A DNA stretch of 64,000 bases from Mesorhizobium qingshengii (GTDB lineage: Bacteria; Pseudomonadota; Alphaproteobacteria; Rhizobiales; Rhizobiaceae), in the NCBI RefSeq assembly GCF_027563465.1, contig NZ_JAPFQA010000019.1:1-64000 (forward strand), given 5' to 3'. The translations under genes and the position numbers were made by a program. The notes beneath the pieces were generated by a model. The model searched no databases. It was given only the letters and a program-made list of their open reading frames with translations, and was not told where the DNA came from. This document shows positions 23,073 to 49,489 of this stretch, piece after piece (the stretch's first letter is position 1; each line of letters opens with the position of its first letter).

Positions 23073-23990
23073 CTAACGTTGGTTGCTCGCATATGGGCGC
23101 CCCTTCTCAGCCGGATACTGTTTTGCGCGGAGCGACTTCATGCCGGTCATGTCGACGACGGCCGCGCGACCTTTCTTGAGTGAAGGCTGCTTTTCGAACG
23201 CAACAACGACCCCGTTCATGCCACCAAGATCGCAAGATTTGCGCATCGTCAGACCGCCGGTGCCGGCACAGTCTGAAACCAATCCGACATATTCCGGACG
23301 AAGGTTGAATATGAGCAGTCCGCCAGGACACAGCAGGGCTGCGGCTGCGGCCAGAAACGATTTTACATCTGTTTCGAAATAGGCCGCTGCTTGCGAATAG
23401 AGGATGCCGACCGTCCCAGGCGGAATTCCTTGTGTGTCAAGGACCGGCAGGCCCGCAGCTGTGACATAAGGGTGTTCAAAGATCCCCTTTGGCAGGTCGG
23501 CGTGCCACTGCGTCAGATTCGTGAAGTGGAGAAAGACGCTCTGACCAAGATCGCGTTCAAAATGTTTGGCAAGGCCTGCAATATCGCGAGAGCTCCCTGA
23601 CGCAGGGCTTTTCAATCCTGCCCAGCCGCCGCCGACTTCCAGATATCGTAAGGTTCCGTCCGCCTGCAGACGGCGATTCGCTTCGTGGACCAGATCGAAG
23701 CCAAGCTGTTCAGCAAGACGAAACGACCCGCCGCTAGAGGTCCATGTTCCGTCATGAAGAAAGGAAACAAGGGTATCGTAGATCGACCCAGTCTCGCGAA
23801 ACATCGCTTTCAGATACCTGACCGGGTTCCGCCGCGATGGTATCGGTACGTTGGGACGCAGTCTGTGAGCTTGCAGGTCCCGTTTCACGCCCATTCGGAT
23901 CGAGCGCCACGCGGCCTCGTCCGGTTCGTATCCAATGGCTTCGAGGTTGCGTAGAATCAATTTGCGCGCGCGCGCCGCTGCGATGAACAT
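23073..23990 (-). CDS. Putative SAM-dependent methyltransferase-like protein
   Basis: About 305 residues. After a 110-residue N-terminal part the sequence shows YLEVGGGWAGL, which fits methyltransferase motif I, and later CPGGLLIFNLRPEYVG, which fits the motif III region (strand 5). Between these lies a segment naming no known substrate. The C-terminal 60 residues are charged and variable. It sits 113 bp upstream of the transglutaminase-like gene on the same strand and could be co-transcribed. I cannot name a substrate; the methyltransferase call itself rests on two motifs. Confidence 0.6.
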   Translation of the reverse strand: MFIAAARARKLILRNLEAIGYEPDEAAWRSIRMGVKRDLQAHRLRPNVPIPSRRNPVRYLKAMFRETGSIYDTLVSFLHDGTWTSSGGSFRLAEQLGFDLVHEANRRLQADGTLRYLEVGGGWAGLKSPASGSSRDIAGLAKHFERDLGQSVFLHFTNLTQWHADLPKGIFEHPYVTAAGLPVLDTQGIPPGTVGILYSQAAAYFETDVKSFLAAAAALLCPGGLLIFNLRPEYVGLVSDCAGTGGLTMRKSCDLGGMNGVVVAFEKQPSLKKGRAAVVDMTGMKSLRAKQYPAEKGRPYASNQR

Positions 23991-24454: not shown

Positions 24455-24822
24455 ATTGTTAAGGTCTGGTTAAGGCCAGACAGCTTCGCCGAATCGTAAG
24501 GCGTCACTTAGTCTAGGGATAATCCCAGGCGCTCAACGTGTCCATGCATTCGTGCGACGGAGCATCGCATGTTCGCGGCGACGCCTGGCGTTGCCGCCTT
24601 GGCCTTCCCTCGCCGAAGATCACCCTTGGCGACGGCGGTGGCCGGGGGGCCTTCGACGGTGCTATTCTTTGGATCCAGCTCCTATGATGCAAGGCATGCA
24701 CTGAACCCTGGAACCCGTTCTGTGATTTTGTGGCAAGCGCCCTTGCCGCGGGTCACGGTAACACGCCAAAATGCACCTTGGCGGTTGCAGTTCGCAAGCG
24801 AGCGCAGCTTAGGGAGGTCGGC
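24455..24822. other. Gap of 368 bp between divergent genes
   Basis: This stretch separates the His-rich gene (minus) from the nuclease-like gene (plus) and must carry both promoters. Frames in it show no family match. An AGGGAGG ribosome site at 24811-24817 belongs to the plus-strand gene. Confidence 0.4.
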
Positions 24823-26088
24823 TTGTCAGAAGCGATGGCGGCGTTGTTGAACCGTTGGCGCAGTGATCCCAACGGGACCTATCGATCATGGTTCTTGTGG
24901 GAAGAGCGCATCAAGAACTTTCGCTCGATACGCCGTGGCATTCAGCAGGTCGTGAGCGAGATCGGTGCGGGCGCGTTCGGAAACGCCTACAGAGGGTCCT
25001 CGTTGGAAGTGGTCGTCCATTCGATCGCCGAGCAAAGACAGATTTTCAAGGGGGCCGATCACGCCTTTCTTTGGAAACCCAAGCTACGAATCCCGGACAT
25101 CTACGAGAATGCCGACAACCAGCGCGCATTCGGACGAATGCTCGACACCTGCGTGTGCTGCAACGAGGAGTCGGTGATGCTCGCGGCGATACAGGAAATC
25201 GACGCACGGGCGATCAAGGGGCTAGGCCCTGCCGTCGCAAATCTTCTTTATTTCCTGCATCCGACGTTGGCGCCGCCCTTCAATACCGCGATCGTCAACG
25301 GCTACAATGCGCTCACCGGGGCCAAAGTGAAGCTCGGCCGATGGGAGCAATATCTGGCAATGAGGAAGGGAATCCTTGTCCTGAACGCCAAAAACCGCGC
25401 TTCGCTTTCGAACGATCTTGGAGCGATTGGCGGCCTGCTGTTCGATATTGGCAGTGGCCGGTACGCCGCGCCGCCGCTCGAGGACAGTCCTGTGGCGATG
25501 GCCGCCTGGCGCGACGACCTGGCGCGCGTTCGGGAGGAGGCGATAGCCGACCGTCTGATCAATGCGGCGCGCGAGAACGATCACACACACACAGAGATCC
25601 AAGGTTGGTTGCGCGATCTCGGTTTCGCTATGGGCTACGATGTTTGGGTGGCTTCCAACGACCGCAACCGTGCTTTTGGCGGTGGGAAGCTCAGCGACTT
25701 CTGTCTTGAAGTCCTTCCATTTCCCGAAGGCGTTTCGGCCGCGGACGCAGTTCGGCTCATCGACGTGCTGTGGCTCGATAAGGCGACGAGGCGGATCGTC
25801 GCTGCCTACGAGGTAGAGCACACCACATCGATCTATTCCGGAATAGTCCGCATGTTGGATCTTGCCCTTGGCGAGGAAGTGCAAGGGCTGGAGGGGCTAT
25901 TCCTTGTAGCGCCCGACGCGCGGGAGCAAGATGTCCGCAATCAGCTCAACAGGCCGGCATTCAGCCGAATTGCGGATCTGAAGGTGCGATATTTGGCGTA
26001 CGGCGAACTCAAGCACAATCGCGAGGCTATCGCCAAATTCGGCCATGGCATGAAGCCCATCCACGCGATTTCGCGGACGCTCAGTTGA
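24823..26088 (+). CDS. Possible PD-(D/E)XK-type nuclease, unknown function
   Basis: About 421 residues in two parts. The N-terminal part (to about residue 230) is helical and includes AIKGLGPAVANLLYFLHP, a helix-hairpin-helix-like pattern. The C-terminal part includes GGGKLSDFC, then LIDVLWLDKATRRIVAAYEVEHTTSIYSGI. The order D, then E-x-E after a strand (AAYEVEHT), looks like a PD-(D/E)XK-type nuclease core; similar sequences occur in restriction-like proteins. I chose the TTG at 24823, which has an AGGGAGG site 5 bp before it; the ATG at 24835 is next. It has no methylase partner. Confidence 0.6.
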   Translation: MSEAMAALLNRWRSDPNGTYRSWFLWEERIKNFRSIRRGIQQVVSEIGAGAFGNAYRGSSLEVVVHSIAEQRQIFKGADHAFLWKPKLRIPDIYENADNQRAFGRMLDTCVCCNEESVMLAAIQEIDARAIKGLGPAVANLLYFLHPTLAPPFNTAIVNGYNALTGAKVKLGRWEQYLAMRKGILVLNAKNRASLSNDLGAIGGLLFDIGSGRYAAPPLEDSPVAMAAWRDDLARVREEAIADRLINAARENDHTHTEIQGWLRDLGFAMGYDVWVASNDRNRAFGGGKLSDFCLEVLPFPEGVSAADAVRLIDVLWLDKATRRIVAAYEVEHTTSIYSGIVRMLDLALGEEVQGLEGLFLVAPDAREQDVRNQLNRPAFSRIADLKVRYLAYGELKHNREAIAKFGHGMKPIHAISRTLS

Positions 26089-29671: not shown

Positions 29672-31192
29672 CTACGCCTGCACGTCGACGATGCCCATCA
29701 TGCCAAGCTGCTCGTGTTCCAGGATGTGGCAATGAAACATTCGCAGCCCCGGCCGGTCCTGTCGTAGCAGGAGCCGCACCGTCTCGCCGCGCGCCACGTT
29801 GACCGTGTCCTTCCAGGCCAGGTAGGCCGGTTTCGAGACCTGGCCATCGCGTTCGTGCTCGATCACCTGAAACTGCGTCCCATGCACATGGAACGGATGG
29901 TCCATGTCCGCCTTGTTGACAATTTCCCAGAGTTCGACCTGTCCTGCTTTAGACACGACATCGATGCGGCCCATGTCAAAGGCGGCGCCGTTGATCAGGA
30001 ACCCCATCTCCATGTTTGTCGCGGTCATCGTCATGGTTTCGGTGAAGACGAAGCGCCGGCTGACGACAGGGGCGTTAAGTTGCGCAATCGGCCGCAGCCT
30101 GTCCGGCAGCGGCGGGAGCGGCTCTGCAGGTGTCTCCGAAACATTGACCGTAAGCAGTGTCAGGCCTGCATCCGCAGGGCGGCCTGCGCCCATCCAGCCG
30201 CGATCGTAGTCAAGCGTGTACAGCGTGGCTGGGCCGGGCTTGTCGAAGGTAACAATCAGCTCAAGGCGTTCCGCCGGGCTGAGAAGGATTTCGTCGGCTT
30301 CGATCGGTGCTTCCAACAGACCGCCGTCCGTTCCGACAACCATCATTGACGCTTCAAACGACAGTCGAAGGAAGCGCGCATTGGTGGCGTTGTAGAGCCG
30401 GAAGCGCCGCTTCGTGCCAAAGGGGACCGTTAGCGCAGGATTCTTCTGGCCATTGACGAGTACGTGATCGCCGACGCGCCCGTTCATCAGATCGACCATC
30501 GTATTGTCCGGCATCGTGCCGTCGGCAGCAAGGCGAAGGTCGGTGAACACCAGTACGGTATCGCCATACTCCGCCGGAATTGGATCGACCTTCGGCTTGA
30601 CCAGGAACACGCCGGCAAGGCCGCGATAAACTTGCTCGGCCGTCTTGCCGTGCGGATGCGGATGGTACCAGTACGCTGCTGCGCTTCCCTCGGGCAGTTC
30701 GAAGCTGTAGGTGCGATCGCCCGCCGTTGCGACCGGATCCATCGGATTGCCGTCCTGGTCCGCCGGCACCGGCATGCCGTGCCAGTGGAGGGTGCTCGCC
30801 TCGCCCGGAATGCGGTTTGCGAAGGTGATCTCGACGCGGTCGCCCTCGACCGCCTCGATCAGCGGACCGGGACTCATGCCGTTGTAGCCAAGAATCGGCG
30901 TGTCGAGCCCCGCGGCGAAGCGAGCCGTAGCGGGCTCGGCGGTGAGTTTCGCCCTGAACAGGCCGGGCGTATTGGCTTCGTTGACGAGGAGAGGCAATTG
31001 ACGAAGCGGCTCTCCCTCAGGCAGCATGAGCGCGTTCTTCGGTGCCGCCATGTCGTTGCCACCCATATCCATGCCGGGCATGTCATCCATGCCGGGCATG
31101 TCATCCATGCCGTCCATCTTCATTTGAGCGATCGCACGCCGGCTAACAAAAACCGTCGCAAGACCTGCCGCCAGAAAACCGCGTCGATGCAT
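29672..31192 (-). CDS. Multicopper oxidase, CueO/CopA type
   Basis: This 506-residue enzyme has a Tat-like signal (HRRGFLAAG), then a Met/Asp-rich stretch made of GMDDMP repeats, then three cupredoxin domains. All four copper motifs are present: HWHGMP, HPHPHG, HPFHVHGTQF and HCHILEHEQLGMM. It oxidises Cu(I) to Cu(II) in the periplasm, using O2, and so lowers copper toxicity. It lies 31 bp after cueR in the copA-cueR operon. The Met-rich N-terminus probably collects copper. Confidence 0.93.
   Translation of the reverse strand: MHRRGFLAAGLATVFVSRRAIAQMKMDGMDDMPGMDDMPGMDMGGNDMAAPKNALMLPEGEPLRQLPLLVNEANTPGLFRAKLTAEPATARFAAGLDTPILGYNGMSPGPLIEAVEGDRVEITFANRIPGEASTLHWHGMPVPADQDGNPMDPVATAGDRTYSFELPEGSAAAYWYHPHPHGKTAEQVYRGLAGVFLVKPKVDPIPAEYGDTVLVFTDLRLAADGTMPDNTMVDLMNGRVGDHVLVNGQKNPALTVPFGTKRRFRLYNATNARFLRLSFEASMMVVGTDGGLLEAPIEADEILLSPAERLELIVTFDKPGPATLYTLDYDRGWMGAGRPADAGLTLLTVNVSETPAEPLPPLPDRLRPIAQLNAPVVSRRFVFTETMTMTATNMEMGFLINGAAFDMGRIDVVSKAGQVELWEIVNKADMDHPFHVHGTQFQVIEHERDGQVSKPAYLAWKDTVNVARGETVRLLLRQDRPGLRMFHCHILEHEQLGMMGIVDVQA
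31070..31122. repeat. 18-bp tandem repeat in the multicopper oxidase gene
   Basis: About three direct copies of an 18-base unit (CATGTCATCCATGCCGGG as read on the plus strand, last copy ending in CGTCC) encode the DDMPGM repeats after the signal peptide. Copy number could vary between strains and tune the number of Met residues. Confidence 0.75.
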
Positions 31193-31222: not shown

Positions 31223-31711
31223 TCAGCGCGCGGTACGATGAGAAAGTCCACCAACGCTTGGCGCTGTCGCCGCCACCACGGGGCTCCGGCGCTTTTTCGG
31301 TGCCCTGGCTGGCCCGGCCTCGTGACCGCTGGAAAGGCTTTCGATGATCGGGCAATGCGGGCGATCATCGCCTTGGCAGTGTTCGGCCAGATGACGCAGA
31401 GTTTTACTCATGTCGCGGAGTTCGCGCATTTTCCGCTCGAGCTCCGCGACATGTTCCATGGCAATCCGCTTGACATCGGCGCTCGCCCGCGAGCGGTCGC
31501 TCCAGAGCGCCAGCAGAGCGGTCATCTGCTCCACCGAAAAGCCAAGATCGCGAGCTCGACGGACGAAACGAAGCATGTGGACGTCGTCGTCGGAATAGAC
31601 CCGGTAACCGGCATCGGTCCGGACAACGTTCGAGATGAGTCCGATCGTCTCGTAATAACGGATCATCTTGGCCGAGACGCCAGACGCCGCTGCTGCTTCA
31701 CCGATGTTCAT
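31223..31711 (-). CDS. cueR: Copper-responsive MerR family regulator CueR
   Basis: This 162-residue protein has an N-terminal winged helix-turn-helix (MNIGEAAAASGVSAKMIRYY), a dimerisation helix (about 80-110) and the metal loop with C112 and C120 in HCQGDDRPHCPII, the same numbering as the Cu(I) ligands of enteric CueR. A Ser/Ala-rich tail follows. It activates copA and copZ when Cu(I) binds. The ATG at 31711 gives the conserved N-terminus. It lies 79 bp after copA on the same strand. Confidence 0.92.
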   Translation of the reverse strand: MNIGEAAAASGVSAKMIRYYETIGLISNVVRTDAGYRVYSDDDVHMLRFVRRARDLGFSVEQMTALLALWSDRSRASADVKRIAMEHVAELERKMRELRDMSKTLRHLAEHCQGDDRPHCPIIESLSSGHEAGPARAPKKRRSPVVAATAPSVGGLSHRTAR

Positions 31712-31790
31712 GAGCGAATTCCTGCAGGTTGAGGCTTCCGGCGACAGCAGAGCCGGGATCCGGGGATAAGACACATCTGAACTAGCCCCT

Positions 31791-34346
31791 TCATATGACC
31801 GGGACCGGCCCGGAGAACTGGTCGGCGCGCGGCCTGCCGTCGATCGGCGGCTGGAAGCGCCTGACGCGCAAGGCATTGGTCAGGACGAAGACGCTGGACA
31901 GCGCCATGGCGCCCGCCGCGAGCATCGGCGACAGAAGCGTGCCGGAGAACGGGTACAGCACCCCGGCGGCGACGGGTATGAGCGCGATGTTGTAGGCGAA
32001 GGCCCAGAACAGATTCTGGCCGATGTTGCGGATCGTGGCCTTGGAGAGCGCGATCGCATTCGCCACGCCGCGCAGATCGCCAGACATCAGGACGACGTCG
32101 GCGCTTTCTATGGCGATGTCCGTGCCAGTGCCGATGGCGATGCCGACATCGGCCGCGGCAAGCGCGGGCGCGTCGTTGATGCCGTCGCCGACGAAGGCGA
32201 CGCGAGCACCGTGCTGGCCAAGCCGCTTGACGGCGTCGACCTTACCGTCCGGCAGCACCTCTGCCACGATTTCGTCGATGCCGATCCGCCGCCCGATCGC
32301 CTCAGCCGTGCGCCGGTTGTCGCCGGTCACCATGGCCACTTTGAGACCGAGCGCATGCAGGGCAGCGATGGCCGCCGGCGTCGATGCCTTGATCGGATCA
32401 GCGACCGCGATGATTGCAGCAAGCCTGCCATCGATGGCCGCATAAAGCGGGGTCTTGCCCTCGTCGCCGAGCCGTGCTGCCGCCGAAGCAAACATCGAGA
32501 TGTCCAGGCCGAGCCGTGTCATCAGGCGATCAGCGCCAATTTCAAGCTTGCGGCCTTCGACGGCAGCACTGACGCCAAAACCGGGGACGGCCTCGAAGTC
32601 CTTGATATCGGCAAGCACAAGACCGCGCCGCTCCGCGGCCCGAACGATCGCCTCGGCGACTGGATGCTCGGAACGAGCCTCCACCGAGCCGACGAGCCGG
32701 AGCACGTCGGCTTCGACAAAACCGTCAGTCACGACGAAATCGGTCAGTTCGGGGCGGCCCTCGGTGAGCGTTCCCGTCTTGTCGAGAGCAATGACCGTAG
32801 CATCACGCAGTGTCTGCAGCGCCTCGCCCTTGCGGAAGAGCACACCCATTTCGGCCGCCCGCCCCGTGCCGACCATAATCGAGGTCGGCGTGGCGAGGCC
32901 CATGGCGCACGGGCAGGCAATGATAAGCACGGCAACGGCGTTGACGAGCGCGAAGGACAGCGCCGGCTCCGGCCCGAGGAAAAGCCAGGCCCCGAACGTG
33001 AGCAAGGCCGCAGCAATGACCGCCGGCACGAACCACGCCGTCACCTTGTCGACGAGCGCCTGGATCGGCAGCTTGGAGCCTTGAGCGGCTTCGACCATCC
33101 TGATGATCTGGGCGAGCAGCGTGGCCGAGCCGACCTTGGTGGCACGGAAGGAAAAACTCCCGGTACTGTTGATGGTGCCGCCGACCACTTCCGCGCCAAG
33201 ACCCTTGGCGACGGGCAGCGGTTCGCCAGTCATCATGGACTCGTCGACAAAGGATGATCCTCCGACGATCTCGCCATCGACCGCGATCTTTTCACCCGGC
33301 CGAACCATGACCATGTCACCGACCCGCACTTCGGCGAGCGGCACGTCTACCGTGATGCCGTTCTTGACGACGCGCGCCGTCTTGGGCTGCAGTCCGACGA
33401 GTTTCTTGATCGCCTCGCTGGTCCGGCCCTTGGCCCGCGCTTCGAGGGTGCGTCCGAGCAGGATCAGCGTCACGATCACGGCCGCTGCTTCATAATAGAC
33501 GTTGGCTGTGCCTGCCGGCAGAACACCGGGAAGGAAAGTCGCGACGATCGAGTAGGCCCAGGCAGCACCCGACCCAAGCGCGACCAGCGCGTTCATGTCT
33601 GGTGCGCCCCTGAGCAGCGCCGGCATTCCCTTCCTGAAGAAACGCAGACCGGGGCCAAACAGAACAATCGTGGTCAGGACGAATTGCAGGCGCCAGTTCC
33701 AATCGCCAAGCGTCATCATCACCCAGTGATGGAACGCTGGCACGAGATGGGAGCCCATTTCGAGCGTGAAGACGGGCAGCGTCAGAAGCGCCGCCAAAGC
33801 GAGCGAACGGCCGAGCACGCGGATTTCGGTTTCGCGCCCATCCCGCTCGCGGTCCTCGCCTGCATCCGGCAGGATCTGACGCGCTCCGTAGCCGGCGGCC
33901 GCCACCGCCTTTTCAAGTGCATCAGCCTCGGCGGCACCCGTGACGATCCGGACGGTGGCGCGCTCCGTTGCCAGGTTAACATTCGCCTCCGCCACGCCCG
34001 GCACTTTCTTGAGTGCCTTTTCGATACGCGCGACGCAGGAGGCGCAGGTCATGCCTTCGATGGCGAGTTCAATCGTATCCGCGCGCGCTTCGTATCCCAC
34101 CGCCGATACTGCCGCGAGAACGGGAGCAAGCTCCGGCTTGCCGGAGAAAGTCACCTCGGCACGTTGGGTCGCCAGATTGACCGATGCCCTGGCGACGCCC
34201 GGCGCGGAGGCAATTGCTTTTTCGACGCGCCGCACGCACGAGGCACACGTCATGCCCTCGATGCCGATCTGAATTGTGGAACCAAGAGCTGAAACGGGGT
34301 CGGCTGGTGTGTGGGGGGTAACGGCGTTCACGGTCTGCAACTCCAT
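31791..34346 (-). CDS. copA: Copper-exporting P1B-type ATPase CopA
   Basis: This 851-residue inner-membrane pump has two N-terminal metal-binding domains with GMTCASC (residues about 31-37 and 99-105), eight predicted helices, the ion site C478-P-C480 in [13 protein letters not shown], phosphorylation site D522 in [14 protein letters not shown] in the nucleotide domain and GDGINDAP near the hinge. It exports Cu(I) from the cytoplasm. It is the first gene of a minus-strand operon with cueR, the multicopper oxidase and the YqaA-like gene, driven by a CueR-type promoter. Confidence 0.95.
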
Positions 34347-38167: not shown

Positions 38168-40522
38168 CTAGGCACTCCATTTCCAATTCTGGATTTCGGG
38201 CATGTCTTCACCATGTTGCCTGATGTAGCGGGCATGATCGGCGAGCTTGTCGCGGATCTCTTGGCCAAACTGCTCCGCACGTGAGCCCAGGCGCGACGCC
38301 CGATCAACGGCATCCATGGCCAGATGAAACCTGTCGATCTCGTTGAGAACCGCCATATCGAACGGCGTAGTGGTGGTGCCCTCTTCCTTATAGCCGTGGA
38401 CGTGAAAATTCTGATGGTTGGTGCGCCTATAGGTCAGCCGATGGATCAGTGTCGGATAGCCGTGATAGGCAAAGATCACGGGCTTGTCCCTGGTGAACAT
38501 CTCGTCGAAAGCACCGTCGCTCAAACCATGGGGGTGTTGGTTTGGAGACTGCAATGCCATCAGGTCAACAACGTTGATGACGCGGATTTTTAGATCCGGG
38601 ACATGCTGCCGAAGCAAGTCGACCGCGGCCAAGGTCTCGAGCGTTGGTACATCCCCGGCGCAAGCCATCACCACGTCGGGCTCGCCATCACTGGTGGCCC
38701 ATTCCCATATGCTTGCGCCGACCGCACAATGAGCTGCTGCGGCGTCGATATCCAACCACTGTAGCTCTGGCGCCTTTCCCGCAACGATCACGTTGATATA
38801 GTTGCGGCTACGCAAGCAATGATCTGTGACCGAGAGCAGCGTATTGGCATCGGCCGGCAGATAGACCCGGATAATATCGGCTTTCTTGTTAGCGACATGG
38901 TCGATAAAACCGGGATCCTGATGGCTGAATCCATTGTGATCCTGCTGCCAAACGTGAGAGGTAAGCAGATAGGTCAACGATGCGATCGGGCGCCGCCAAG
39001 CGACCTTGCGCGAGACCTTCAACCATTTAGCATGTTGGTTGAACATCGAGTCGACAATGTGGATAAAGGCCTCATAACAGGAAAAAAATCCGTGGCGGCC
39101 GGTGAGCAGGTATCCCTCCAGCCAGCCTTGGCAAAGATGCTCGCTCAGGACTTCCATCACGCGGCCGTCCGGCGCGATTTGGGTGTCGTCCTCGATGAGC
39201 TCGCCAGCGAAAGCCCGGTCGGTGACTTCGAACAGCGCGGAGAGACGGTTCGATTCGGTTTCATCCGGACCGAAGACGCGGAAGTTGTGCCCAGCCATAT
39301 TGAGCTTCATCACGTCCCGCAGAAAGGTGCCTGCAATTCGGGTGGCTTGACCGACAACCGTGCCCGGAGCAGGCACATCGACGGCATAATCGCGGAAATC
39401 GGGCAGCTCCAGTTCGCGCAAAAGCAATCCGCCATTGGCGTGCGGATTCGCTCCCATCCGGCGAGCACCTTTGGGCGCCAGTTCCCTCAACTCAGTAACA
39501 AGCCTGCCCGTTTCATCGAACAGTTCTTTCGGCCGATAGCTCCGCATCCAAGTCTCCAGTACCGCGAGATGGCTGGGATCGCCAGCAAGATTGGCCAGCG
39601 GAACCTGGTGTGAGCGCCATGACCCTTCGGTCTTCTTGCCATCGACCTCCTTGGGTCCTGTCCATCCTTTGGGCGTCCGAAGCACGATCATCGGCCAAGC
39701 GGGCCTGCTGGTGAACCCGTTGGCCCGGGCGTCGGATTGGATCTGCCGGATTTCCCCGACGACCTGATCTAGCGTTCCGGCCATGAGCTGATGCAGCGTC
39801 TGCGGATCATCGCCTTCGACGAAGTATGGCTTGTATCCGTAGCCGCGAAACAGCGCCTCGAGTTCCTCGTGACCAATCCTAGCGAGGATTGTCGGACTCG
39901 CGATCTTGTAACCGTTGAGGTGCAGGATCGGCAGTACTGCGCCGTCGCGCGCCGGATTGAGAAACTTGTTTGAGTGCCAGCTCGTGGCCAAGGCGCCGGT
40001 TTCGGCTTCACCGTCGCCCACCACGCAGGCGACCAGAAGGTCCGGGTTGTCGAAAGCGGCACCGTAGGCGTGCATCAGCGAATAGCCGAGTTCACCACCC
40101 TCGTTGATCGAACCCGGCGTTTCAGCCGCGACATGGCTCGAAATGCCACCAGGAAAGGAAAACTGGGTGAAAAGCTTCTTCAGGCCGTCTTCGTCCTGGG
40201 AAATTGCCGGATAGAATTCGCTGTAAGTACCTTCGAGATAGGTATTGGCCACCACGCCCGGGCCGCCGTGCCCCGGTCCGGCGACATAAATCATGTCGAG
40301 GTCGAACTGCTTTATGATCCGGTTGAGATGGACATAGATAAAGTTCAGCCCCGGGGTCGTGCCCCAATGCCCAAGCAGCCGCGGCTTCACGTGCTCCAAG
40401 AGCAGCGGCTCCTTTAGCAATGGATTGTCGCGCAGGTAGATCTGGCCGACGGAAAGAAAGTTAGCTGCCCGCCAGTAGGCGTGCATCTTCCGGAGGAGTT
40501 CCGGCGAGAGTGGCTCGTTCAT
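38168..40522 (-). CDS. xfp: Xylulose-5-phosphate/fructose-6-phosphate phosphoketolase
   Basis: This 784-residue thiamine-diphosphate enzyme splits xylulose 5-phosphate or fructose 6-phosphate with phosphate to give acetyl phosphate and an aldose phosphate. The N-terminal domain has [11 protein letters not shown], the AGPGHGGP motif and the ThDP motif GDGEAETG (residues 169-176). Later HQDPGFIDH and the C-terminal [17 protein letters not shown] are typical. The ATG at 40522 lies 4 bp after the ackA stop, so the two form one operon in which acetyl phosphate passes to acetate kinase. Confidence 0.95.
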
Positions 40523-40526
40523 GCGT

Positions 40527-41732
40527 CTATTCCTTTGAGTGAGTGCGGTCCAAAATGCCACTGACCGCTTTGGCGATCATCATTTCTTCATCGGTGGCGA
40601 TAACGCGAACGCAGACGCAGCCAGAGTCGGTTGAGATGACCGGCTCGCTGCCATCGTTCCGCGTCGCGTCGAGTTGGACGCCGAGGAAATCGAGATCGGC
40701 GCAAATGCGTGCACGTATGGCAGACGAATTCTCGCCAATGCCACCTGTGAAGACCAGCGTATCGAGCCCGCCGAGCGCGGTGGCAAATGACCCGATGCTC
40801 TTCTTGACCTGGTAGCAGAACAGATCAACGGCTTCGGATGCCCTGACATCACGGGTTTCGCGATCCAGGAGGTCGCGCAGATCAGAGCTCGTTTCGGAAA
40901 CGCCAAGCAATCCCGCCTCGTGATTGACCATGCGATGAAATCGTTCGGCGCTCAGGCCTTCGGCTTGGGCGAAGAACAAGACCAGGCCCGGATCGAGATC
41001 GCCCGACCGTGTGCCCATCGGCACGCCGGCCGCAGGGGTGAATCCCATGGTTGTGTCGATGCATTTGCCGCCGCGCACCGCCGACAGACTGGCGCCATTG
41101 CCGAGGTGGGCCATGATCACGCGGCTAGAGGCCGCCTCTACGCCAGCGACACGCGTCAGTTCCTCGACGAGGAATGCATAGGAAAGACCGTGGAATCCGA
41201 GCCGCTCAACTCCCAACGCCTCGTAACGCCGCGGGATTGGCAGGATTTTCGCGACGCGCGGCATGTGTTGGTGAAACGCGGTGTCGAAGCATGCGGCCTG
41301 CAGCAAGGTCGGAGCGCGGCCGCTGAACAGCTCGATCATTGCGATCTCGGATGGCAGATGCTCCGGCGCGTAGGCGCTTATCCGCCGCAATTCGTCCATC
41401 AGTTCGCTTGTGATCGGTTGCGGTTCCTTGTAGCGCGCGCCGCCATTGACAATACGATGACCTACCGCCTTCAGCGAGGCCAATCCGACGCGCTCCTCGA
41501 GCCAGTCAAGCAGGTAGCCCGTTGCAGACCTGTGATCCAACGCGCCAACCGAGCGGATCTGATTTTCGCCACTGGCTAAATCTGTCAAGGTTATTGTGGC
41601 ATCGCGCTCGCCGAGACGATCTATTTTGCCGCGCAGTTGGCGGATCGGAGCGTCCGCCACCGCGAATAATGCGAACTTGATGCTCGACGAGCCGCCATTG
41701 ATCGTCAGCACCGATGATTCTTGCATGTTCAT
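40527..41732 (-). CDS. ackA: Acetate kinase
   Basis: This 401-residue enzyme turns acetyl phosphate and ADP into acetate and ATP. It shows the family start [15 protein letters not shown], the HRIVNGG motif, [21 protein letters not shown] and FTGGIGENS. It lies between the ATP-grasp gene, whose stop overlaps its ATG, and xfp. The set makes the last steps of a phosphoketolase route to ATP. The length is normal. Confidence 0.95.
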
Positions 41733-45337: not shown

Positions 45338-45536
45338 CCCCAACGCGCACCGCATGTCCGTACGCCCGACCTGCCCAACCAGAGCCGGAGGTCGAGGCCG
45401 GATCGGGCGGAAATTTCGAAGACCGGCTTGGTCACGATTGGCTTCCAACGCGCGGCAAGCCGCGAACGTGCGTTTGTTACACCCTAACCCGGGCCGAATG
45501 TTTCGAGACCGAGAGTTCAAACCGAAGGAGATGATG

Positions 45537-46967
45537 ATGAAGCGCCGAGATTTCTTGAAAGGTGCGTTAGCCGGTGCGGCAGGTCTTGCGGCGCCAGCGT
45601 TCTCGTTCAGGCCGGCTTTCGCCGGTCAGTCAGGCGCCCAGCCGCTTGGCATCTCACGCCGCACTATCGAGGTGAACGGCAAAGCTGCCAGCGTCTTCGG
45701 CCTGCGAAGGGCCGACGGCGCGCCTGGCCTGCGCTTGCGGGCGGGCGAAGCCTTCAACGTGCTGCTTCGAAACGAGACAGCCGAGCCAACGATCATACAC
45801 TGGCACGGGTTGACGCCGCCGTGGCCGAGCGACGGCGTCGCCGACGCGCCACTGCCGCTCATCGGCGCTAGAGCCGATCGCAGTTTCGATTTTCCGGTCG
45901 GCGGGCCCGGCACTTTCTGGATGCACGCGCATACCTTGCAGGAGCAATTGCTGCTCGCCGCTCCGCTCATTGTCGCCGATCCCGCCGATGACGCAAAGGA
46001 CGAGCAGGAGGTTGTCATCCTGCTCCACGATTTCTCGTTCTCGTCGCCGGAAGAGCTGCTGGCCGGGTTGCAGAGCAAGAACACCGGCGGCTCCATGCCG
46101 ATGGGCGGGATGGATATGTCGGGAGCGAAGACCGACGCCATGGCAGGGACGAAAAATGGCGGCATGGCGACCGATATCAACGATATCGACTATGACGCCT
46201 ATCTGGCCAACGACCGGTCCCTGAACGACCCCGAGATCGTCCCGGTCGAACGGGGTGGACGTGTGCGGGTGCGGATCATCAACGGCGCCACGGCGACGGC
46301 GTTCACGATCGACTTTGGCGCGCTTGAAGGCGAACTGATTGCGGTCGACGGTCAGCCTGTCGAACCGGTCAGGGGTCGGCGGTTTCCGATGACAATGGGG
46401 CAGCGCATCGACGTGCGCCTGCAGTTGCCGCGCGACGTCAGCTCCTCCTTTCCGATCCTGGCGCTGCGCGAGGGAAGCAAGGAACGCACCGGAATTGTCC
46501 TGCGTCCGGCCGGCGCAGCGGTGGCCAAGCTCGGGACGGCGGCGGATGCCGACGCTCCAGTTCTCGACCTGGCGCTCGAGGCACAACTTCGGGCAATCGC
46601 GCCACTTGCATCGCGCCCTGCCGACAAGACGTTCGACATGGCGCTAACGGGCGACATGGCCGCCTACCGCTGGGGCTTGCAGACCAACCCACCGCTCGTC
46701 GTCGATCCGGGCGACCGGGTGGAAGTGACGCTGCGCAACACCAGCATGATGGCCCATCCAATGCACCTGCACGGCCATCATTTCCAGGTGGTCGCGATTG
46801 ATGGACAGCGCTTTGCGGGAGCGGTGAGGGATACGGTCCTGCTGCCCCCTAATCGCTCCGTGACGATCGCTGTCGACGCCGTCAATCCCGGAAAATGGGC
46901 GTTCCACTGTCACCATCTCTACCACATGGCGACCGGCATGATGTCGACCTTTGCCTATCGGGTTTAG
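45537..46967 (+). CDS. Second multicopper oxidase
   Basis: This 476-residue enzyme has a Tat signal (KRRDFLKGALAGAAG) and three cupredoxin domains with the copper motifs HWHGLTPPWP, WMHAHTLQEQ, HPMHLHGHHFQV and HCHHLYHMATGMM. It differs from the first oxidase in motif two (HAH, not HPHPHG) and carries a Met-rich loop (MPMGGMDMSGAK) in the middle. Three ATGs in a row lie after GGAG; the last (45537) has the best spacing. It oxidises Cu(I) or another metal in the periplasm. Confidence 0.9.
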   Translation: MKRRDFLKGALAGAAGLAAPAFSFRPAFAGQSGAQPLGISRRTIEVNGKAASVFGLRRADGAPGLRLRAGEAFNVLLRNETAEPTIIHWHGLTPPWPSDGVADAPLPLIGARADRSFDFPVGGPGTFWMHAHTLQEQLLLAAPLIVADPADDAKDEQEVVILLHDFSFSSPEELLAGLQSKNTGGSMPMGGMDMSGAKTDAMAGTKNGGMATDINDIDYDAYLANDRSLNDPEIVPVERGGRVRVRIINGATATAFTIDFGALEGELIAVDGQPVEPVRGRRFPMTMGQRIDVRLQLPRDVSSSFPILALREGSKERTGIVLRPAGAAVAKLGTAADADAPVLDLALEAQLRAIAPLASRPADKTFDMALTGDMAAYRWGLQTNPPLVVDPGDRVEVTLRNTSMMAHPMHLHGHHFQVVAIDGQRFAGAVRDTVLLPPNRSVTIAVDAVNPGKWAFHCHHLYHMATGMMSTFAYRV

Positions 46968-47044
46968 GATATTCCGCGGGCCGCAACGATCCGGGGCCTG
47001 CATAACAACGATGGCAATGCAGCAGGAAGCATAGGAGACCGTTG

Positions 47045-49489
47045 ATGAAAAAGGTCAATCTGGAAGTGCGCGGCCTTGTCGGCATAATGGATTTCGCAGC
47101 GGTCGAAATGCATCTCGCGGCTTTGCCGGGTGTCGCCGGTGTCGCGATGAACGCGGGGTCGACAACCGCGAGCGTCGAATTCGACGAGGGGCGGACGAGC
47201 CCGGAGATCCTCGCCAGCGAAATTGAGGCCTGCGGCTTCCATTGCCGTGGCGAGGTCGTGCCGCGGCATGTGTGCATTCCCGACAGCACGACGATACCGC
47301 CGGGGCATCCGCGCGCGACCTCCGGGCACGATTACGCCCAGCACGATCATAGGGGGCACGATCATGGGGGGCACGCCGCCATGATCGAGCCGGCTCCGGC
47401 GGGCAAGAGCACGGCTGCAGCCAAGGCGCCGCACGACGCCATGGCCCATGAGATGGGACACGGCGCCGGCATGGACATGCAGGGCATGGTCAAGGACATG
47501 CGCAATCGTTTCCTCGTCAGCCTGGTTTTCACGCTGCCGATTTTCGCCATGGAGCCGATGGGCCTGGGCGAGCCGTGGCTGCGCCCGCCTTTCGGACTGA
47601 GTGAAGACCTTGCAATGTTTTTCCTCGCCAGCGCCGCGATCCTCTACCCGGTCTGGCCATTCCTGGTCGCCGCCTGGCGGGCCTTGCGCAACGGCGTCCT
47701 CAACATGGCCGTGCTGGTGGTGCTGAGCGTTGGCACCGGCTACCTGTTCAGCGTTGGCGCGACCTTCTTCTTCGAGGGGCAGCAATTCTACGAGGCGGCG
47801 AGCGTGCTGCTCGTGTTCATCCTGCTCGGCCATTGGCTGGAGATGCGCGCCCGTGCGGGGGCGTCGGCCGCGATCAGGGCCCTGCTCAACCTAGCACCGC
47901 CCAGGGCCTCCGTTTTCCGCGATGGCAAGGAGGTCGAGGTTGCAACCGCCGACGTCGTGCTCGGCGACATTGTGGTCCTGCGGCCCGGCAACAAGCTACC
48001 CGTCGACGGCGAGGTGATCGAAGGCACGTCGACGATCGATGAATCGATGCTGACCGGCGAGTCGATGCCGGTGACCAAGAAGGTCGGCGACAAGGTCATC
48101 GGGGCGACGATCAACAAGAGCGGCTCGCTGCGCTACCGCTCTACCAAGGTGGGTGCCGACACTGCGCTTGCCCAGATCGTCAAGCTCGTCCAGGAGGCCC
48201 AGAACTCGAAGGCGCCGGCCCAACTGCTCGCCGATCGCGCTTCGCAATGGCTGGTGCTTGCCGCGATCCTCATCGGGCTTGCGACCTTCGCCGTCTGGTT
48301 CTGGTGGCTCGGCCAGCCTCTGCTGTTCGCGATGACCTTGACCATAACCGTCTTCGTCATCGCTTGTCCCGATGCGCTCGGCCTCGCTACGCCGATGGCT
48401 GTCATGGTCGGCACCGGCCTTGGCGCTTCAAACGGGATCCTGTTCAAGAATGCCGCCGCTCTCGAGGAGGCGACCAAGCTCAACGTGATCGTCTTCGACA
48501 AGACCGGCACGCTCACGATGGGGCAACCCAAGGTCGTCGAAATCGTCTCCGCTGCCGGCGTTTCCCCCGACGAGGTCCTACAAGTCGCGGCCGCCGTGGA
48601 TCAGGGCTCGGACCATCCGCTCGCCGTCGCCATCGTCGAGCGAGCCAAAGACCTGAAGCTTCCCAAAGTGTCGGACTTTCTGAATATCGAAGGCGAAGGC
48701 GCCACAGCCGCGATCGCCGGAGCGCCGGTTTTCCTTGGCAACCGGCGCCTCATGGACGAGCAGAAGATCGATCTTCTGGCGCTCGGTGACAAGGCCGAAA
48801 CGCTCAAGGGCGAAGGCCGCACCGTCATCCATGTGGCACGCTCTGGCAAGCTGCTCGGGCTGATCGCTATCGCCGATACGCCGCGCCCGACAGCCATCGC
48901 AACGATCGCCAAACTGCACGACCAGGGTGTTCGCGTGGCCATGCTCACGGGCGACAATGCCGGCACCGCCAAGCGCATCGCCGACGAACTCGGCATCGAC
49001 ATCGTCCTGGCCGATGTCTTGCCAGGGCAGAAGGCCGAGAAAATCAAGGAACTGCAAGGCCAAGGCCTGAAGGTCGGCATGGTTGGCGACGGCGTCAACG
49101 ACGCGCCAGCCCTGACGCAAGCCGACGTCGGATTTGCGATCGGTGCGGGCACCGACGTCGCCATTGAAAGCGCCGACATCGTGCTGATGAAGAGCGATCC
49201 CTACGACGTGGTCGGTGCGATGACGCTCTCGCGCGCCACGCTACGCAAGATGCACCAGAACCTGTGGTGGGCGGTCGGCTACAATCTCATCGCCTTCCCG
49301 ATCGCGGCAGGCGTATTCTACCCATTCCTGCTGAGCCCCGAGATTGCAGCGCTGGCAATGTCGGGCAGTTCGGCTCTCGTGGCCGTCAACGCCCTGCTGC
49401 TGAAGCGAACCAGGCTCGCGGGCATCCGGCCCGCCGGGTCGATGACCGAAGGTGTTGCTCACGAGCATCCGACTGGCGCCCCGGCATGA
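47045..49489 (+). CDS. P1B-type metal ATPase with a CPD ion motif
   Basis: This 814-residue pump has a degenerate HMA domain at the N-terminus (GLVGIMDF stands where GMTCxxC would be), a His-rich linker ([11 protein letters not shown]), eight helices, phosphorylation site D485 in [14 protein letters not shown] and GDGVNDAP. The helix-six ion motif is C441-P-D in [12 protein letters not shown], not the CPC of CopA. The changed Cys may shift metal choice. It lies about 75 bp after the second multicopper oxidase. The ATG at 47045 has an AGGAGA site before it. Confidence 0.9.

Follow-up and report, generated by a model that had tools for sequence, protein, structure and literature searches.

Why would copper resistance need a nuclease? 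This question is raised by a gene of Mesorhizobium qingshengii that is located on the plus strand at positions 24823-26088 of the window, which is the whole stretch of 64,000 nucleotides that was analysed. The gene has a TTG start codon and encodes a protein of 421 amino acids. Accounts of copper resistance usually centre on the export, the oxidation and the sequestration of the metal, and a nuclease would add a further element to this picture.

The gene and its relationship to CopL

Five nucleotides upstream of the TTG start a likely ribosome-binding site, GGGAGG, is present (24812-24817, plus strand), and a similar sequence, GGGGAGG, precedes the gene of the nearest relative (L002), which is from Mesorhizobium comanense and is 94.5% identical. 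The longest mechanically determined reading frame opens at GTG 24730. The sequence elements that had been quoted in a preliminary description of this DNA were located at residues 133-142 (GLGPAVANLL), 314-319 (DVLWLD) and 327-340 (AAYEVEHTTSIYSG). A genome collection was scanned for relatives, and the best 80 of 106 were kept, which were 62-94% identical to the window protein and mostly near full-length. The frame was single and unbroken in all 90 other loci that were read (80 from genomes and 10 from plasmids). The comparison of the window gene with its nearest relative yielded a dN/dS of 0.064, and 73 positions were invariant across 99 aligned sequences, showing that the gene is under selection. 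The reading frame is a real gene under purifying selection, and the earlier observation of an ORF with the quoted motifs was confirmed by its coordinates, its relatives, the unbroken frames and the dN/dS value.

When a Cupriavidus member of the family was used as query, positions 180704-181969 of the plasmid pMOL30 of Cupriavidus metallidurans CH34 were found, which is the gene for CopL (Rmet_6120, RMET_RS30570). The name copL could be tied to this gene because two start sites from the published passages fit the record, namely the transcription start site of copL at 181,983, which is 14 bp upstream, and an antisense start site at 181,548 inside copL (PMC7563307). The window protein and CopL are 65% identical over the full 421 amino acids (E 0.0), so that the same two domains are expected in CopL. 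The sequences thus attest both a conserved coding gene and its relationship to CopL.

On pMOL30 copL has a start site of its own and a shared motif, for which the authors propose a possible binding of CopR1 (PMC7563307). The published evidence on the induction of copL by copper is conflicting. According to the passages on copL, RNA-seq under acute copper revealed that the cop1 genes were up with the exception of copE and copL, while an antisense transcript inside copL was up (PMC7563307). After a multi-metal challenge copL was up on both strands (PMC11647585), and in a proteomic study CopL was not found, nor were ten other cop1 products (PMC11647595). In one of the published passages CopL is listed as a type II restriction enzyme (PMC12029693), and other members of the family are already annotated as "type II restriction endonuclease". 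The claim that the protein might belong to a type not yet described is therefore not supported, in view of its relative CopL, of these annotations and of a match to the PADLOC profile REase_II that is described below.

Two predicted domains

The CopL-family protein encoded at 24823-26088 (plus strand) is predicted to be a fusion of an HhH-GPD-like and a PD-(D/E)XK domain. An AlphaFold2 model of the whole protein, built with 57 sequences, had a mean pLDDT of 81 and a pTM of 0.70, with a helical N-terminal half and an alpha/beta C-terminal half. In the latter, residues 244-421 (25552-26085, plus strand) form the predicted PD-(D/E)XK nuclease domain, the elements of which are helix 244-269, strands 273-276, 315-318 and 325-331, helix 337-349 and strand 358-363. 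The best match among solved structures was the small subunit of R.BspD6I (2p14; VIA-align, Z 8.6, rmsd 3.7, 138 residues), and N.BspD6I, BsaWI, EcoT38I, SgrAI, BamHI and the Pyrococcus abyssi repair endonuclease 2vld were ranked below it. The predicted model and the alignment contain the alpha-beta core of restriction endonucleases as well as the acids of the pattern D...(E/D)-x-(K/E). D314 (25762-25764, plus strand) is a putative metal ligand just before core strand 315-318, and E330-V-E332 (25810-25818, plus strand), where core strand 325-331 ends, is the putative catalytic pair of the E-x-E type. All 99 sequences have these three acids without exception, and the same is true of H256 and Q260 in the first core helix (25588-25602, plus strand) and of N279, D280, S339, G340, R343 and D346. 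The PADLOC profile REase_II (PDLC03534) matched residues 254-395 with an E value of 1.9e-10. Pfam and NCBIfam yielded no family for the window protein (in the case of Pfam none at E values up to 10), and Foldseek found no match with E < 0.001 for the model of the whole protein or of the N-terminal domain, the fold scores being middling. Predicted structure and alignment together indicate that the C-terminal half is likely a PD-(D/E)XK nuclease with its catalytic residues kept, and the PD-(D/E)XK core that had been suspected from a few motifs is supported by the structure prediction, the match to 2p14 and the invariant acids.

The N-terminal half (residues 1-222; 24823-25488, plus strand) is predicted to be an HhH-GPD glycosylase-like domain. 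When it was folded alone, the model had a pLDDT of 85 and a pTM of 0.85, and its comparison with 3knt, the 8-oxoguanine glycosylase Ogg of Methanocaldococcus jannaschii, resulted in a Z of 7.0 with an rmsd of 4.0 over 161 residues. HhH-GPD glycosylases made up 37 of the 50 entries shown, many of them OGG1, and the Foldseek ranks 1-6 were MutY proteins with E values of 0.23 to 0.94. A profile comparison with 31 HhH-GPD proteins was weak (P 0.031 over 26 columns, compared to 0.26 for the C-terminal domain; one row, L119, is a fragment of 36 amino acids), and PF00730 of Pfam matched neither the window protein nor any of 12 members. A Z below 8 can reflect a common arrangement, and the N-terminal half was therefore assigned on three grounds, namely how consistent the listed matches are, the coverage and the helix-hairpin-helix motif IKGLGPAVANLL, which was found at residues 131-142 (25213-25248, plus strand). 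This agrees with the helical N-terminal part with a hairpin pattern that had been described before. These results point to a putative HhH-GPD glycosylase fold of the 8-oxoguanine/MutY type.

The chemistry of the glycosylases looks lost, as judged from the alignment, because the places of the catalytic Lys and Asp are not kept. The place of the Lys is taken by A137 (A in 96, T in 2 and S in 1 of 99 sequences), while N154 (25282-25284, plus strand), which either coincides with the position of the Asp or is no more than two residues away from it, is found in all 99 sequences. Between residues 146 and 162 the window protein is free of Asp, and thus the apparent loss of the catalytic Asp is independent of the register of the alignment. 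Residues 75-95 (25045-25107, plus strand) form a nearly invariant loop, F..GA.H.F.WKPKLRIPDIYE, with low model confidence at 77-88. Among 52 cluster representatives the median identity to the window protein was 72% for the N-terminal domain, 60% for the C-terminal domain and 100% for loop 75-95, indicating a stronger constraint on the putative reading half than on the nuclease half. On the basis of models and alignment, both folds, the retained nuclease residues and the lost glycosylase residues are thus inferred features of the family.

A search of PDB sequences was topped by helices of coronavirus spike S2, which matched the helical part 131-222 (window 25213-25488) with a best profile E value of 4.3e-05. 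These matches were taken as chance. They advise caution with profiles that are built from few sequences.

Copper genes in the neighborhood

Two groups of copper genes are present in the window. On the minus strand a multicopper oxidase gene (29672-31192; the best NCBIfam model is CueO, below the cut-off), a gene for the Cu(I)-responsive regulator CueR (31223-31876; TIGR02044 above the cut-off) and a gene for a CopA-type copper P-type ATPase (31791-34346; TIGR01511 above the cut-off) were identified in family searches. On the plus strand a second multicopper oxidase (45354-46967) and a second copper-type P-type ATPase (47042-49489; TIGR01511 above the cut-off) are encoded. Between the two groups, adjoining genes for phosphoketolase and acetate kinase are found (38168-41732, minus strand).

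At an identity of 85%, 99 family loci fell into 53 clusters. Copper markers were found near the gene in 36 of the 53 clusters, or, counted by locus, in 51 of 80 genome loci, in 8 of 10 hand-picked plasmid loci and in 5 of the 8 short loci that belong to one family. The other 17 clusters lacked such a marker up to a distance of about 8.5 kb, and some of these are on short contigs. The commonest neighbor groups, which were named by length, sequence and marker matches and not by a family search, were P-type ATPases, which occur in 27 of the 53 clusters and are no farther than 1.5 kb away in 13, followed by multicopper oxidases with 18 clusters and RND pumps with 11. P-type ATPases with motifs that we take to be copper-type were present in 20 of the 53 clusters, and some of those nearby are without these motifs (e.g. 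in L072, L083 and L085). Copper genes were also found nearby on annotated plasmids of Roseomonas, Sphingobium, Variovorax, Enterococcus, Listeria and Hymenobacter, and heavy-metal P-type ATPases near the gene in Deinococcus and Komagataeibacter; the setting is less clear in Streptomyces and Spirosoma. In Hymenobacter (L088:11297-12493) a second gene, annotated as restriction endonuclease, lies directly 3' of the CopL-family gene.

These numbers were compared with the background in the host genomes. Cu-oxidase_3 had 140 matches in about 219 Mb (38 host genomes), from which about 0.5 positive loci of 39 would be expected, versus 15 observed. E1-E2 ATPase had 201 matches in about 130 Mb (24 host genomes), with about 0.7 of 24 loci expected versus 15 observed. 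In a sample covering the phylum a copper marker was present at 9 of 15 target loci, versus 0 of 9 EcoRII-C and 0 of 10 Tn3 transposase control loci (Fisher p 1e-4); the loci compared are few and in part related to one another, the marker rule was fixed after earlier marker matches had been seen, and the markers were partly drawn from CopL-family loci. The 15 target loci, from 14 genomes and with 8 from one family, were taken from 17 places found, the window and a fragment at a contig edge being left out; two of them, L162 and L163, are copies in one genome. For EcoRII-C all 9 places found were used, one of which (L176) has an arsenite-pump marker and no copper marker, while the 10 Tn3 loci were taken from 15 listed places after removal of repeats and fragments and represent 5 genomes, a single one of which contributed 4 loci. 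REase_II was also tried as a control family (E 1e-8, 299 genomes) and was rejected as unusable, since the 5 places found in 4 genomes all belonged to the CopL family and other members were missed. Among the 6 unmarked target loci of the sample, two look metal-related by eye and were not counted, one with an RND pump (L160) and one with a DUF2933-like and a Met/His-rich ORF (L166). At three loci of one family (L167, L168 and L170) the gene is surrounded by seemingly ordinary chromosomal genes and no copper markers were found. The flanking ORFs that L168 and L170 have in common suggest vertical inheritance.

The companions of copL on pMOL30 are much less common. A tblastn search with copO, copQ, copH, copE, copG and copI of pMOL30 found no relative in the window, and relatives of copQ, copH and copE were each present in only 1 of the 53 clusters, which is the Cupriavidus one, those of copG in 10 and those of copI in 8. 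The distribution of copL is thus far wider than that of its cop neighbors on pMOL30.

The preliminary description had seen no methylase or helicase next to the gene, and indeed no DNA methylase or helicase was found by Pfam among 20 chosen ORFs of the window between 18.6 and 49.5 kb. A crude motif search for a DNA-methylase pattern was likewise negative in 1,444 neighbor ORFs of 99 loci. The ORF at 23073-23990 (minus strand) resembles a class I SAM methyltransferase by eye and has no match in Pfam, NCBIfam or PADLOC. None of 8 window neighbors matched PADLOC at an E value of 0.001. A stand-alone defence gene, as had been proposed, is therefore not the best reading, because the neighbors that recur most often resemble genes for the efflux and oxidation of copper. 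Taken together, the compared sequences reveal a frequent linkage to copper genes.

Possible functions and known systems

The explanation that accounts best for these results, to which a probability of about 0.4 is assigned, is that the CopL family consists of metal-dependent PD-(D/E)XK nucleases with a dead-glycosylase reader, which are mobile accessories of copper-resistance islands and most likely perform damage-dependent incision. The N-terminal domain would scan DNA and dock on an abnormal base or a copper-provoked lesion, and the C-terminal domain with D314, E330 and E332 would then incise the strand. Normal DNA would thereby be spared, and no protective methylase would be needed. Free cutting of normal host DNA is unlikely, because the nuclease spreads across phyla without a methylase. 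A glycosylase shape without the glycosylase residues would suit the recognition of an abnormal base and its hand-over to the nuclease, and, judging from the copper setting, the target would be lesions or adducts formed when the cell is under metal stress. It is from the copper linkage that we infer DNA repair, and the function as a repair nuclease, although preferred in this analysis, is unproven. A role in oxidative lesions in particular is weakened by a report that copper does not cause oxidative DNA damage in the cytoplasm of Escherichia coli (Macomber 2007, as cited in a passage of PMC9302797). Among the published data, the separate start site of copL and its rise after the multi-metal challenge favor the explanation as a whole. 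Against it stand the missing induction under acute copper, the failure to find CopL by proteomics, the clusters and sampled loci that are devoid of copper markers, and the middling fold scores. It is tempting to speculate, albeit only tentatively, that CopL represents a class of lesion-directed nucleases, in which a dead domain of the 8-oxoguanine glycosylase type would find a damaged or metal-adducted base and a restriction-type nuclease would cut there, and that copper islands across phyla would carry CopL to repair DNA besides exporting the metal.

The main rival of the repair reading is the restriction of modified DNA. As a restriction enzyme, either an orphan or a modification-dependent one (type IV-like), the protein would read modified or foreign DNA with its N-terminal domain and destroy incoming phage or plasmid DNA with its nuclease, and copper islands would be mere carriers, to which it is a benefit or serves for the exclusion of rival plasmids. 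A base-reading fold joined to a nuclease without a methylase would suit a type IV action, the gene is plasmid-borne in 179 records, REase_II matched 12 of 12 diverse members, and the existing annotations as type II restriction endonuclease point in the same direction. However, the commonest neighbor groups look related to copper and not to defence, none of the 8 window neighbors compared with PADLOC matched it, and the EcoRII-C control loci were devoid of copper markers, so that this explanation is regarded as possible yet rather doubtful.

The distribution of the gene bears on a different explanation, namely that it is a selfish or neutral passenger without a role in copper resistance, which rides on copper islands that spread well. 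The gene is single copy in its own genome and sporadic. It was found in 15 of 398 genomes from a sample of the phylum, its own included, and in none of the eight further genomes that are listed for its genus. Its positions and orientations relative to the neighbors vary, and some genomes contain two copies on different contigs (L003 and L007; L035 and L050; L162 and L163). Some plasmid records outside the 90 loci read contain broken or partial copies, with the match in 2-4 pieces (H12, H16 and H60) or as fragments (H99). All this would fit a passenger, but the low dN/dS and the invariant positions speak for selection, and the Tn3 transposases, which are mobile as well, had no copper marker nearby at any control locus. 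A mere passenger is therefore unlikely.

Scans of genomes and plasmids revealed relatives in many phyla. A transfer between phyla is likely, though the tree itself is no proof of it, as rows of several phyla join at an unsupported fork. A phage origin was considered and rejected: there was no match among 50,697 phage records, a scan of viral contigs that reaches close relatives only yielded one pattern match and no confirmed one, and a viral fold library gave no match with E < 0.001.

A regulatory role would mean that both domains bind DNA, that cleavage is weak or absent, and that the protein acts as a DNA-binding regulator or sensor that tunes cop expression. On pMOL30 copL is divergent from copO-copF and shares the intergenic region with them. 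A CueR-like inverted repeat with one mismatch is located in this region (L194:13903-13923), as is the case in L021 and L023. CopL is described as a Cys-rich cytosolic protein in PMC7563307, yet the count made here gave only 4 Cys residues for the window protein and 5 for CopL. Against such a role, the putative catalytic acids are invariant, and a CueR-like box with at most one mismatch was found upstream in only 3 of 71 loci (up to three loci per cluster), all of them from Cupriavidus, versus 0.11 expected. With at most three mismatches 6 of 71 loci were found versus 1.88 expected, and with at most four 17 of 71 versus 12.4 expected. No CopY-type box was present in the promoter regions of the Enterococcus and Listeria loci, the one pattern match being inside the Listeria coding start. 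A copper-regulated promoter was therefore rejected as a general feature, and regulation is an improbable function of the family. Still less probable is a suicide nuclease that is switched on by surplus cytosolic copper and degrades the DNA of overloaded cells, since C110-x-C112-C113, which is common (96, 83 and 87 of 99 sequences) and could bind Cu(I), lacks C112 and C113 in the two Bacillota and two Bacteroidota members that were aligned, with copper markers near the gene in three of these four, and no antitoxin-like group was recognized by eye among the 45 commonest neighbor groups.

A conserved nuclease-like protein that accompanies copper genes in Proteobacteria, Bacillota and Bacteroidota suggests that copper survival has a part at the level of the DNA; alternatively, the protein could be a DNA-policing part of copper islands. 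The interest lies in the link itself, in that a reader-guided nuclease, built from a dead glycosylase reader and a live nuclease, is predicted for a copper-resistance component of untested function. Searches of the open-licence literature for copper resistance in combination with a restriction endonuclease, with an HhH-glycosylase fusion or with an island nuclease or DNA repair yielded no paper.

The predicted core fold and the D...E-x-E acids are common to the CopL-family protein and to PD-(D/E)XK restriction endonucleases such as the small subunit of R.BspD6I, BamHI, which we take to have the E-x-E form, and BsaWI. The protein differs from these enzymes by the glycosylase-like fusion, by the linkage to copper genes and in that no methylase was found; in type II restriction-modification systems the cognate methylase is beside the nuclease, whereas the window gene is without one among the ORFs scanned. 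Accordingly, REase_II of PADLOC matches only the nuclease half of the family. With the HhH-GPD glycosylases (archaeal Ogg, MutY and OGG1), residues 1-222 share the predicted fold and the helix-hairpin-helix, while the protein is unlike them in the missing catalytic Lys and Asp and the missing PF00730 match. The repair endonuclease 2vld of P. abyssi, presumably NucS, has a PD-(D/E)XK domain in common with the window protein (Z 6.6, rmsd 4.0, 101 residues), whereas no counterpart of the HhH-GPD-like N-terminal domain and no sequence match were found. The closest comparison is that with CopL of pMOL30 itself. There copL is set among the genes for a multicopper oxidase, CopB, CopC, CopD, a P-type ATPase and CopE, whereas the window gene is 3.6-8 kb away from the copper genes, has the opposite orientation and is not part of a compact cop cluster. 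Nevertheless, the two proteins are related over their full length, and both are encoded near copper-resistance genes.
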